Source: a virus
IMG/VR virus record: IMGVR_UViG_3300008117_001099
Span: 1 to 22,029 of that record
Length of the DNA stretch: 22,029 nucleotides
Strand: one strand, 5' to 3'
Below, one piece after another: positions 3,776-15,890 of the stretch (positions are counted from its first letter, which is position 1; each line of letters begins with the position of its first letter). Made by a program: the position numbers and the translations under genes. Under the pieces are notes generated by a model that saw only the letters and a program-made list of their open reading frames with translations, was not told where the DNA came from and did not search any database.

Positions 3776-3943
3776 ATGAGTTTGTGGGACGATTTTAATG
3801 AGGCTAGAGAAGCTTATAACAGCTATTTAGCTGACCCTTATGTAGTCGGTAGTGATGAGGATACCGATTGTGTGCTTGAGCATTTGCTTGAATTAAGTGA
3901 TGCCGCTGTGCGGTTGATTGATTCTCTAAAAGGTAAGATATGA
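3776..3943 (+). CDS. Small acidic helical protein (55 aa)
   Basis: A 55-residue, strongly acidic, probably all-helical protein (MSLWDDFNEAREAYNSYLAD at the start). ATG 3776 follows GAAGGG (3766-3771). The stop TGA overlaps the next start as ATGA (3940-3943). No recognised domain. Its tight linkage on both sides and a good ribosome site support it as a gene despite its size. Confidence 0.68.
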   Translation: MSLWDDFNEAREAYNSYLADPYVVGSDEDTDCVLEHLLELSDAAVRLIDSLKGKI

Positions 3944-8584: not shown

Positions 8585-9048
8585 CAGTCAGGAAACGAGT
8601 ACCCACGCAACGATCACAAGATCGTGCCCACAAAAGAAAGAAGTGTATAGATTGTGTCGATGAAGGAATCACTACAGCGCGTAAAGCACCGCATCCTGGC
8701 CCTAGATGCGCGACTCATCACCGCGCTAAGCGAGCTAAACGGAGTAGTGCCACCCGCGAACAGCGTTGGCTCCAAGTCTACGGCATCACCGGAGAAGAAT
8801 ACTGGGCCATCCACGAGTACCAAGGTGGCTGCTGCTATATTTGCAGGAGAGCTAAAGGGATCGGCAGGAAAAGACTGTCGGTAGATCACTGCCACACCAC
8901 CGGCATCGTTCGGGGACTTCTCTGTCAGCCGTGTAACCGTGACGTATTAGGTCATGCGAGGGATGATGTTGAAGTTTTCCAACGTGCTATAGAGTATCTG
9001 AATAATCCACCAGCTGTTGATGTGATAGGATGGAGGGAGGTTCCATGA
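8581..9048 (+). CDS. Recombination endonuclease VII-like (HNH-type) nuclease
   Basis: A 155-residue protein of the endonuclease VII family, which resolves branched DNA such as four-way junctions. The core is YGITGEEYWAI, CCYICRR (Cys84/85 and Cys88), the catalytic DHCHTTG (102-108), and RGLLCQPCNRDVLGHARDD (Cys115 and Cys118 complete the zinc site). An extra N-terminal knuckle, Cys22-x2-Cys25...Cys43-x2-His46, lies in a basic region. GTG 8581 overlaps the preceding stop, and the end overlaps the primase start as ATGA. Role: probably debranching replicated phage DNA before packaging. An overlapping 76-codon ORF in another frame is ignored. Confidence 0.88.
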   Translation: MTVRKRVPTQRSQDRAHKRKKCIDCVDEGITTARKAPHPGPRCATHHRAKRAKRSSATREQRWLQVYGITGEEYWAIHEYQGGCCYICRRAKGIGRKRLSVDHCHTTGIVRGLLCQPCNRDVLGHARDDVEVFQRAIEYLNNPPAVDVIGWREVP

Positions 9049-9425
9049 GTTTAATAGTACAAACAATCTTACGGTACTGCCCGCAATTCGATCCCCCAAA
9101 TGATAACGGACGCGATTGGACACCATGCCTGTGCCCGTTCCACGGTGACGAAAACAGGTCAGCATCTATTTCGTATAGGCATGATGCGTTTCACTGCTTC
9201 GCTTGCCCAGTCAAGGGTGACGTGATAGCAATAATCAGAGAACAGGAAGGGTGCAGTTTTGCAAAAGCTAAGTCAATCGCAGAAGGACTATCTGAGGGAG
9301 GCAACGTCACGGTATCACAACGCACTAGCAGACAGCCCCGCCAGCGAATATTTGCAGACGAGGGGATTGGGTTGGGAGTCGATTCAACCGGCGGTGAACA
9401 GGTTCAGACTAGGATACGTTGGTGA
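9045..9425 (+). CDS. DNA primase, CHC2 zinc-finger half
   Basis: A 126-residue protein carrying a DnaG-type CHC2 zinc finger: Cys30-Pro-Phe-His33, then Cys51-Phe-Ala-Cys54, followed by the typical [18 protein letters not shown] helix. This domain recognises template and helps initiation of primers. ATG 9045 follows GGAGGGAGG and overlaps the endonuclease VII stop. Only about residues 1-80 look like primase; the remainder to 9425 is an out-of-frame reading of the next gene. The Toprim half is in the +1 frame from 9259, so the primase is either two polypeptides or joined by a frameshift between 9235 and about 9330. Confidence 0.82.
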
Positions 9426-9906
9426 CCCGCTACCCGGCCATGAAATGTATAAAGGTTATATGGCTATCCCGTATCTACGCTGGTCTGCTGACAAAGAGTG
9501 GGCTGTGGTGTCGATGAGGTTCCGCCGCCTAGATGACGGGAAACCAAAATATATGACGTTGGCTGGGGATCGTCCCCGACTGTTCAACACTATGGCGTTG
9601 CTTAAGGACACCGCTAATGTGGCTATCACCGAGGGTGAGATTGATGCCATTACTGCCACGGTGTGTGGTCTACCGGCTGTGGGTGTTCCTGGGGCGCAGG
9701 CTTGGCAGCCGTGGTTTCGGGAGCCGTTCCTAGGTTACCGCAACGTGTATGTGTTGGCTGACGGTGACGATGCCGGTATGCAGTTCGCTACCCAGGTGGT
9801 TTCGTCGCTGCCTAACGGTAAAATTATTCCTATGCCGTCAGGTTCGGACGTGAATTTGTTGGTGGCTGAGAAGGGTAAGGATGCCTTGTTGGAAAGGATC
9901 ATGTGA
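9259..9906 (+). CDS. DNA primase, Toprim catalytic half
   Basis: A 215-residue Toprim-domain protein: the helical lead-in [15 protein letters not shown] is typical after the primase zinc finger. Then come YMAIPYL, the first Toprim acid in TEGEIDA (Glu125), and DGDDAG (Asp168, Asp170) for metal binding. It synthesises RNA primers for the phage fork. TTG 9259 has AGGAAGGG (9244-9251) with 7-base spacing, so independent translation inside the zinc-finger gene is plausible; a +1 (or -2) shift would fuse the two. A TAA at 9232 limits the frame upstream. The total of about 300 residues matches small phage primases. Confidence 0.82.
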
Positions 9907-12461: not shown

Positions 12462-12615
12462 ATATATGACACCAGAAGATGCAACCCTAGCAGGGAACTA
12501 CTCTGACTGGGTTGAAGATGAAGAATACACTGCTGAAGAAACAGAATACTGCTGCATGTGTGGGTTCGCTGTGTACGACAATTACTGTGACGAATGTGAG
12601 GAATACGTTGACTAA
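12454..12615 (+). CDS. Small acidic zinc-ribbon protein (53 aa)
   Basis: A 53-residue highly acidic protein with C-C-x-C (CCMC) near residue 34 and CDEC near residue 45-48, a minimal zinc ribbon. ATG 12454 overlaps the previous gene; its GGAAAGG is too close, so ATG 12466 (49 residues) may be the real start. It lies directly before the ribonucleotide reductase and overlaps its TTG start by 8 bases. A link to the reductase, for example as a redox partner, is suggested only by position; the CxxC pairs look metal-binding rather than thioredoxin-like. Confidence 0.62.
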
Positions 12616-13117
12616 CTTTGGGCCAACCGGACAGCTGGTGTACGACCGGACATACTCGCGGGTTAAGCCGGATGGGACGAAAGAAACTTGGCCCGAAACT
12701 GTGAGGCGGGTGGTGGACGGCAACCTTGCACTGGTCGATAAGAAGTATGAGCTTCCCGGTGAGCGGGAAACCCTGGCCCGGTTCATGGAGGAATTTAAAA
12801 TCCTGCCAGCAGGCAGGCACATCTGGGCATCCGGTGTCAAGAACGCTGAACATCTGTTCAACTGCTGGGTGGCAGGGTGGACCGACCGACCGGCAGACCA
12901 CTTCGCATTCACGTTCATGCGGCTGATGGAAGGCGGCGGAGTAGGCGCATCGTACTCTAATAGGCACCTATCTGCATCACTACCGACCGGACACCGTTCA
13001 CTTCAACCGGGTGTACGATATCTCCCGCATCCGGCACGCCGGGGCGAAACTGAAAACCTTCGGAGGTACAGCGTCAGGTCCGCTGCCGTTAGCAAACATG
13101 CTCACACTGGTCAGTGA
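12608..13117 (+). CDS. Class II ribonucleotide reductase, N-terminal part (frame-disrupted)
   Basis: The N-terminal part of an adenosylcobalamin-dependent, monomeric ribonucleoside triphosphate reductase. TTG 12608 follows GAGG (12598-12601) with 6-base spacing and gives [30 protein letters not shown] and FNCW (Cys86, the partner of Cys119 in the Lactobacillus leichmannii enzyme) and [10 protein letters not shown] (110-119) are family hallmarks. Homology stops near residue 125 (about 12985); the rest to 13117 is an out-of-frame reading of the second part. The continuation lies in the +1 frame, and about 79 residues between the catalytic cysteines are missing relative to the Lactobacillus enzyme. 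The product may be joined by frameshift, be an inactive remnant, or reflect an assembly deletion. Confidence 0.75.
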
Positions 13118-14450
13118 AATTCTGTCCAAACGTGCAGATGGTGTCAACAAGCTGGATGGTTTGTCCGCAATGGAAATTGACCACTGTATCGCGCAGTGTG
13201 TGGTGGCCGGCGGTGTGCGTAGGTCTGCCCGTATGGCTATGATGCATTGGGAGGACCCGCAGATCATGGAGTTCATCGAATGTAAAACCAAGTCGGGTTC
13301 CCATTGGACAACCAACATCAGTGTGGAGGTTGATGAACGGTTCTGGTATCAGGCACGGCAAGGTGAAGCGTGGCACGCTAAGAAGGTGTTGGACGCTATC
13401 GCTGAGGGTGCGTTGCATAACGGTGAACCCGGCTTCTGGGACTCATCATACTCCAATGAAGGTGAACCTAACAGGGTGGTTTGCACCAATCCTTGTGGCG
13501 AGATTACCTTGCAAGAGTGGGAGCCGTGCAATCTGGGTCACATCAATCTGGCTGCGTTTGTTGGTGGGCGTAACGATGGCGTAGATTTCCCTAGCATGTT
13601 GTTGGCGCACAAGCTGATGACTAGGTTCCTCATCAGGGCAACTTTCTCCAAGGTCAGTGACCCTAAGAGTCGGGAAGTGCTGGACCGTAACCGGCGTATC
13701 GGTGTAGGGCATTTCGGTGTAGCATCATATCTTGCTATGACCGGAACTAAATACTCTGATGCGCCTAAGGATCGGCAGTTCCGTGCCATGCTGATGGAGT
13801 TGGCTAAGGCTGTTGACCTTGCCGCTATTGAGTTCAGCCACGATCTGCGAATCCCGGTGCCGGTGAAGAAACGGACAATAGCACCTACCGGTACTATCGC
13901 TAAGATGCCGGGTGTGTCTGAGGGTGTCCACCCTATCTTCGCCAAATATTTCCTGCGGCGTGTCCGGTTCAACAAGCTGGGTGACGCTATGGAACAGGTG
14001 GAGGATTTGAGGGCGCAAGGATATAAGGTGGAGGACGATTTGTATGCACCTAATACTGCCGTGGTGGAGATTCCCACCAAGGATATCCTGATGCAGGAAG
14101 TTGAGGACAGGTTTGGTTTGGAGGTTGCGGAGGATATCGTGGAAGCTGCGGACGATCTGCCGTTGCACGCCATGCTAGGGTTCCAAGCCCTGTACCAGGA
14201 GTTGTGGGCAGACAACGCTGTCTCCTACACAGCCAACTTCCATCCCGACAAGTACACAGCGGAACACATTGGCCGTGAAATTCTATCGTATGCTGGTAGG
14301 ATTAAGGGCGGTACAATTTTCCCTGAAGCGTCTATGCCTCAGTCACCTTACGAACGCCTAGAGCGGTGGGAGTATGAGTCTGCTGTTGCTAAGCAGGTTG
14401 CTGATGGTATTGACGAAAACTGCACCACCGGGGCTTGCCCGGTACGGTGA
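13011..14450 (+). CDS. Class II ribonucleotide reductase, C-terminal catalytic part
   Basis: The main barrel and C-terminal tail of the B12-dependent reductase, which makes deoxynucleotides. From GTG 13011 (479 codons): [11 protein letters not shown], then N160-P-C162-G-E164 and Cys173. These have the same spacing as Asn406, Cys408, Glu410 and Cys419 of L. leichmannii RTPR, so radical cysteine, general base and one redox cysteine are present. The tail C471-TTGA-C476 matches the external thiol-relay pair. Homology already begins upstream, at about 12981 ([15 protein letters not shown]). No good ribosome site precedes 13011, so it likely depends on the first part. All key residues are retained, which argues against long decay. 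Confidence 0.8.
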
Positions 14451-14522: not shown

Positions 14523-14993
14523 TTGTCCGATATCGACCCGTTTGATGACGTTGTGGACCTGGATGCACCGGAGCCTTTCGCGGATGAGCCTGTGAAGAAG
14601 GCTGCACCTAAGAAGGCGGCTCCTAAGAAGGAGCCGTCCGGTGACCGTGAGGGTGTTACCGTCACCCTGAAGGGCGGTGCAGGGTTTGATGCACCGTGGA
14701 TCGTTATTCATGCCGCAGACATTAATGATGCGTATGAGCAGCTGTCCGGTGACAATGCTTCTGTGCTGTCCAAGTTGATGGACCGTACCCGCAACGCCGC
14801 CTCACACTTCACGTCGCTGGGTGGTGCCACTACCTCCGCGCCGGCCACCCGTCCCGGTCAGGAAGTTCCCGCTGGTCTACCGGAGCCTCCCGGCCCCGAC
14901 TGGACCTACAAGACTGGTGTCGGTAAGAACGGTAAGACGTGGAAGGCTTATATGCCTCCGCGTGGTTCAGCAGAGCCGCCGGTCTGGCTGTAA
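14523..14993 (+). CDS. Lys/Ala/Pro-rich protein, possibly DNA-associated (156 aa)
   Basis: A 156-residue protein with an acidic N-terminus (MSDIDPFDDVVDLDAPEPF) and a KKAAPKKAAPKK linker (about 25-36). A compact middle domain follows (GVTVTLKGGAGFDAPWIVIHA then ADINDAYEQL), and a Pro-rich C-terminal part with TGVGKNGKTWKAYMPPRGS. I do not recognise the family. The basic linker, strong promoter and place between the reductase and polymerase genes would suit an abundant single-strand or nucleoid DNA-binding protein, which is inference. TTG 14523 is set by GGAAAGGA 8 bases upstream; no ATG is available nearby. A hairpin follows the stop. Confidence 0.72.
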   Translation: MSDIDPFDDVVDLDAPEPFADEPVKKAAPKKAAPKKEPSGDREGVTVTLKGGAGFDAPWIVIHAADINDAYEQLSGDNASVLSKLMDRTRNAASHFTSLGGATTSAPATRPGQEVPAGLPEPPGPDWTYKTGVGKNGKTWKAYMPPRGSAEPPVWL

Positions 14994-15008
14994 CACTTAA
15001 CATTGGGA

Positions 15009-15034
15009 AGGGGGCAGGGTCACACCTGCCCCCT
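15009..15034 (+). terminator. Hairpin after the 14523 gene
   Basis: AGGGGGCAGG (15009-15018) pairs with CCTGCCCCCT (15025-15034) around loop GTCACA. No U-tract follows. It separates the strongly promoted small gene from the methyltransferase and is likely a partial terminator or mRNA-stabilising stem. Confidence 0.55.
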
Positions 15035-15050
15035 CCCGAAAGGGGACACA

Positions 15051-15890
15051 TTGAAAATAGGTAGTTTATGCACAGGGTATGGCGGGCTAGACATGGCAGT
15101 GGAGTCTGTACTTGGCGGCGACATGGTGTGGTACTCAGAGTTTGACAAACCGGCATCACAGCTTCTCGCACACAGATTCCCAGGTAAAAATAATCTTGGT
15201 GATTTAACTAAAATTAATTGGTCACAGGTGGAACCTGTTGACATTTTGACCGGCGGCTACCCGTGTCAACCCTTCAGCAACGCAGGCAAGAAATTAGGAG
15301 AAGATGACCCACGACACTTATGGCCGTACATACGTGACGCCATTCGCATACTACAGCCAAGAATCTCAATCTTTGAAAATGTGTCAGCCCACCTTAACAG
15401 AGGATTCTCTTCCGTTTTGCGGGACTGTGCCGAAGACGGGTTGGATGTTAGATGGTGTGTTGTACGGGCATCCCAGGCAGGTGCCCCCCACAAACGTGAA
15501 AGAGTGTTCTTCATTGTTGCCAACCCCTACAGCGAGAGACTACAAGGGAATTGCATTCAACCCAGCGGACCTGTCCAGGTTGGTGAACGCTCTGGTGTGG
15601 TTGACTGGGTATCGGGTGGGTTCCAATGGGGAGAGTACACCGAAGCGATAAGCCAATGGGAAACAATTCTGGGGAGAGCAGCCCCATACCCTGTTGAAGA
15701 TAACGCCAACGGCAGACCTAGACCCCGGGCGGTTTTCTACGAGTGGATGATGGGGCTGCCTGAAGGTTGGGTGACAGACCCCGCTATTGGGTTGGCTTGG
15801 GGGCACCAGATAAAGATGTGTGGTAATGGTGTTGTTCCTCAGCAGGCTGAATTTGCTTTACGACTCCTGTTAGATGAGAAAGAGGATTAA
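15051..15890 (+). CDS. dcm: DNA (cytosine-5) methyltransferase
   Basis: A 279-residue C5-cytosine methyltransferase. Motif I is LCTGYGGLDMA (6-16, SAM binding), motif IV GGYPCQPFSNAGK (nucleophile Cys72), motif VI FENV (108-111), motif VIII SQAGAPHKRERVF (141-153), the phage-typical EWMMGLPEGWV (231-241), and motif X GNGVVPQQA (258-266). The recognition region between VIII and X is short. No restriction gene is nearby, so it probably protects phage DNA from host restriction. TTG 15051 follows AAAGGGG (15039-15045); the upstream extension to 15003 crosses the hairpin. The stop overlaps the polymerase start as TAATG. A second ORF is embedded at 15304-15651 in the +1 frame. Confidence 0.92.
   Translation: MKIGSLCTGYGGLDMAVESVLGGDMVWYSEFDKPASQLLAHRFPGKNNLGDLTKINWSQVEPVDILTGGYPCQPFSNAGKKLGEDDPRHLWPYIRDAIRILQPRISIFENVSAHLNRGFSSVLRDCAEDGLDVRWCVVRASQAGAPHKRERVFFIVANPYSERLQGNCIQPSGPVQVGERSGVVDWVSGGFQWGEYTEAISQWETILGRAAPYPVEDNANGRPRPRAVFYEWMMGLPEGWVTDPAIGLAWGHQIKMCGNGVVPQQAEFALRLLLDEKED
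15304..15651 (+). CDS. Candidate overprinted ORF inside the methyltransferase gene
   Basis: A 115-codon ORF in the +1 frame of the methyltransferase gene. ATG 15304 is directly preceded by AGGAGAAG (15296-15303, tight 3-base spacing). The product contains FCGTVPKTGWMLDGVLYGHP, then VPPTNVKECSSLLPTPTARD followed by YKG. From memory, these match a recurring phage protein pattern (SG-T-x-PKSG-M-x-G-x-LY, then SSLLPTPTARD-x-KG) found beside or fused to methyltransferases. In the main frame the same bases encode motifs VI to VIII (FENV to APHKRERVFFIVANP). Either both frames are used, or the database pattern itself arises as the shadow of conserved methyltransferase motifs. Expression is unproven. 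Confidence 0.35.
   Translation: MTHDTYGRTYVTPFAYYSQESQSLKMCQPTLTEDSLPFCGTVPKTGWMLDGVLYGHPRQVPPTNVKECSSLLPTPTARDYKGIAFNPADLSRLVNALVWLTGYRVGSNGESTPKR

Follow-up and report, generated by a model that had tools for sequence, protein, structure and literature searches.

In monomeric class II ribonucleotide reductases, the specificity site is formed by a long loop-1 insertion that mimics the dimer interface; dimeric class II enzymes work without this insertion (PMC9669993). A split class II reductase is also known, in Pseudomonas aeruginosa (PMC4520616). The closest described counterparts of the gene considered here are the reductases of cluster A actinobacteriophages (Wile gp49, Topanga gp47; 66%–73% identity), which share its family, genome place, and catalytic residues, and the RTPR of L. 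leichmannii (PDB 1L1L, monomeric class II), which is the best sequence match of an intact relative (4e-74) and has the same insertion domain. All cluster A reductases that were checked are intact, with 268–282 residues between the two catalytic cysteines (the Cys119 and Cys408 equivalents), whereas the gene in the window (the whole analysed stretch, a 22,029-base virus record consisting of one linear contig) is broken. Judged by sequence, it is a broken copy of a monomeric B12-dependent class II ribonucleotide reductase gene (RTPR/NrdJm) from a cluster-A-like actinobacteriophage.

Genes in the window follow the same order as in the right arm of cluster A actinobacteriophages (Wile and Topanga, for example), and in relatives, as in the window, a gp49-family gene comes after the reductase. 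In order, the features are:

Upstream genes: PD-(D/E)XK exonuclease, DnaB-like helicase, endonuclease VII, two overlapping primase ORFs, gp53/sigma-K-like gene
12608 to 12977, plus strand: 5' part of the reductase, comprising the alpha domain and the first strands of the barrel; its frame has a TTG start at 12608
12945 to 13117, plus strand: stretch over which both reading frames are open, the 5' frame being without a stop before 13115 (direct reading and ORF list)
12977/12978, plus strand: deletion junction, 182 bases gone relative to L002 (1605–1786) and L003 (2819–3000)
12978 to 14450, plus strand: 3' part of the reductase, in the +1 frame; rest of the insertion domain, barrel, C-terminal cysteine pair, and normal stop
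14523 to 14993, plus strand: gp49-like gene (L5/D29 gp49 family; Pfam PF25690 5e-22, PHROG 364, match to Wile gp48)
Downstream: DNA polymerase I

Several observations concern the neighbouring genes. The gp49-like family is called "ribonucleoside reductase class II" by PHROG and in some GenBank records, a label that may have been borrowed from the neighbouring gene; the Pfam model names it only as "L5/D29 gene 49 protein". A C5-cytosine DNA methyltransferase gene (15003–15890) lies between the gp49-like gene and the DNA polymerase. It is absent from L002, a close relative in which only about 70 bases separate the aligned parts; Wile has related methyltransferase halves at another place (gp74, gp75). 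Two ORFs that overlap in different frames (9030–9425 and 9259–9906) encode the DNA primase, and because this layout recurs in Wile and Topanga it is a conserved split, unlike that of the reductase. A small ORF of about 50 residues (12468–12617), with several cysteines at zinc-finger-like spacing, overlaps the reductase start; Topanga has small unnamed genes at the equivalent position. Short tandem repeats of 14–15 bases (GATACCCGAACCGCA; TGAATTGGAATACA; CGTGTAACCGGATT) lie at 1491–1655, a region without a convincing gene.

Both parts of the reductase match the RTPR family. The 5' part matches Pfam RNR_Alpha (6e-17) and TIGR02505 RTPR (1e-39, model positions 7–138) and is 73% identical to residues 3–130 of Wile gp49, while the 3' part matches TIGR02505 from position 198 to 724 (2e-141). 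Model positions 139–197 are missing from the window; an intact relative scores 8e-204 against the same model. As the initial annotation had proposed, the halves are out of frame with each other, the 5' half being read in the frame of 12608 while the 3' half follows that of 12954, a +1 step. Beyond 12977, the 5' frame codes for unrelated sequence up to a stop at 13115–13117. A working member of the RTPR/NrdJm family would be expected to have one open reading frame, and with its halves offset the gene was filed as a broken copy. Its catalytic residues are all present, at the positions originally reported: the Cys119-equivalent codon (in NCW) is at 12863–12865 and the Cys408-equivalent codon (in NPCGE) at 13494–13496, 631 bases away, and equivalents of Asn406, Glu410, Cys419, and the C-terminal cysteine pair (in CTTGAC) are encoded within 13488–13502, at 13527, and within 14421–14438.

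The nearest relative, L002 (IMG/VR 3300024433_000469), has the same upstream and downstream genes, shares 93.6% DNA identity downstream, and encodes a protein 97% identical over the 3' half and 93% over the 5' half. Its reductase is an intact single frame of 690 codons that includes the 182 bases. Comparison with the closest phage homologues, which the initial annotation had recommended, located the break precisely: a global alignment of window positions 12600–13200 with L002 is interrupted internally only once, by a gap of 182 bases at 12977/12978. Left-flank blastn alignments to L003 and L004, which are lower in identity than L002, end exactly at 12977, and that to L002 picks up again at 12978; since the L003 and L004 alignments reach 12977, the bases left of the junction are native flank and not filler. 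As 182 is not a multiple of three, the deletion produces the +1 step. The site first given for the shift (about 12985–12995) was slightly too far downstream. A loss between the catalytic cysteines was also correctly recognized, with its size overestimated. The two cysteines are 268–282 residues apart in 28 loci (271 in L002–L005), so the 289 residues of L. leichmannii RTPR used as reference were 18 too many, a normal shortfall of these phage enzymes, and the loss relative to the nearest relatives is about 61 residues and not 79. The lost segment was searched for elsewhere in the window and not found. The only repeat seen at the junction was an inverted match of 17/19 to 3845–3863, which is about chance level in 22 kb and was therefore not used.

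The placement of the loss near the effector-binding insertion was borne out. By count along the HMMER alignment, the lost segment corresponds approximately to residues 175–237 of RTPR 1L1L, for which the window has no match. The insertion domain model Pfam PF21995 (RNR-II_ins_dom) is matched at positions 53–107 or 68–107 in the window and at 4–107 in an intact relative, so that the first half of the model is unmatched and the loop-1 insertion is incomplete. In an alignment of 17 intact relatives, about 24 residues of the lost segment (A1 residues 120–180) are invariant, including the block EDSREGW. A predicted structure of an intact relative (mean pLDDT 72, pTM 0.69; mostly 84–94 in the lost segment) has 1L1L as its best match (TM 0.74/0.69), and in this model the deletion takes away strand 128–132, helix 140–145, and most of helix 167–182. 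By homology, the removed strand and long helix would belong to the dimer-mimicking, effector-binding part (PMC9669993), and the remaining piece of the insertion would stand without its partner strand and helix.

We assessed how widely the deletion is shared among relatives. Of 111 loci, some of which are extracts that overlap on one contig, 107 have left flank, segment, and right flank in a single frame. Two of the remaining four were cut from the window, and in the other two the contig stops at this point; all 107 loci that span the region are intact. The segment together with its right neighbour occurs in 933 of 50,697 phage records (coverage of at least 80%). A 39-residue query spanning the join in frame found no match in these 50,697 records at E 1e-10. 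At 1e-5, the matches listed consist of two pieces that measure about 303–306 bases end to end and are therefore intact genes. Thus, no relative carrying the same deletion in one open frame was found among the 107 spanning loci or the 50,697 phage records. In the viral collection, a 21-mer of the left flank matched no other contig and a 20-mer of the right flank matched only the intact L002 contig, so the junction is known from one contig; no integrated relative was found in a bacterial genome collection, and searching the literature for phages that have lost a reductase gene returned nothing useful. Separately, the N-terminal part of the reductase, but not the insertion segment, is matched by four Mycobacterium phage records (687 versus 683), and one or more of these could have a deletion of this kind or encode a divergent version of the enzyme.

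Substitution patterns bear on the age of the break. Relative to L002, dN/dS was 0.065 for the 3' part and 0.13 for the 5' part, the latter falling to 0.08 when its final 18 bases are left out; the neighbouring intact polymerase gene gives 0.105. These ratios indicate that both halves stayed under purifying selection during almost the whole period since divergence from L002, implying that the break is either young or an artefact. Immediately left of the junction, 12 of 63 bases differ from L002, compared with 0–7 per 63 over most of the gene and two further peaks, of 13 and 15.

The gene is best read as that of an ordinary reductase, not of a novel enzyme, from which 182 bases are missing out of frame in this contig alone. 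The explanation we favour for the gap, at a probability of roughly 60% (a judgement, not a measurement), is a genuine and recent mutation in this phage copy. The initial annotation had offered a fresh inactivating deletion or an assembly error, and both fit the finding that all spanning relatives are intact and that both halves look constrained. An artefact of the assembly or the library, in which the flanks of an intact gene were wrongly joined through gap closing, a chimeric read, or a strain mixture, is a possibility we take seriously, although at less than even odds. Near-intact halves are expected from such an artefact and from a very young deletion alike, the sequence is one linear contig, and the raised divergence from L002 just left of the junction makes a strain mixture near the break conceivable. 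However, the join contains no N, no comparable break occurs in matched neighbouring genes, and the alignment with L002, whose bases stand in for those lost from the window, reveals no shared word at the ends of the break long enough to collapse an assembly graph.

The third option put forward originally, a working minimal reductase in which a programmed +1 frameshift joins the halves into an unregulated enzyme without most of the allosteric (effector) segment, found no support and appears very improbable. The retention of every catalytic residue, the constraint on both halves, and the precedent of dimeric class II enzymes that manage without the long insertion (PMC9669993) would suit it, but the deletion occurs in none of the spanning relatives, no in-frame version exists among the phage records searched, the lost part is highly conserved, and the leftover piece of the insertion is out of frame and lacks its structural partners. 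Programmed frameshifting would also call for a conserved slippery site with a stop or rare codon in the upstream frame. Between 12945 and about 13000, where the shift would need to take place, the upstream frame has neither a stop codon nor a known, classical +1 site, and beyond the junction it continues for about 140 bases before its stop; the relatives use a single frame. No more credible is a split gene whose two polypeptides assemble into an enzyme, as in P. aeruginosa. The 3' part does have a possible GTG start at 13011, with 479 residues coded, yet this codon lies inside the insertion domain with no visible ribosome site, the 5' part finishes in foreign residues, and the break removes conserved sequence rather than dividing the protein. 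We rejected the frameshifted and the split enzyme alike.

Under the favoured reading of a private deletion, the 182-base event would have removed about 61 residues of the loop-1 insertion and shifted the frame, so that the protein would end early and lack most of the barrel. From the normal start, translation yields about 123 native and about 46 foreign residues before the stop at 13117, so no active reductase would be expected from this copy; its product is most likely inactive, and a phage with the broken allele would rely on the ribonucleotide reductase of its host. In phage Kampy, the reductase gene is very highly expressed (PMC4626039). The enzyme family itself is already known, and a private deletion in one contig changes little in that respect. 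If the join is an artefact, it is a reminder to check such contigs against reads before claiming gene loss; if the deletion is real and the phage viable, it means that a conserved gene can be lost.
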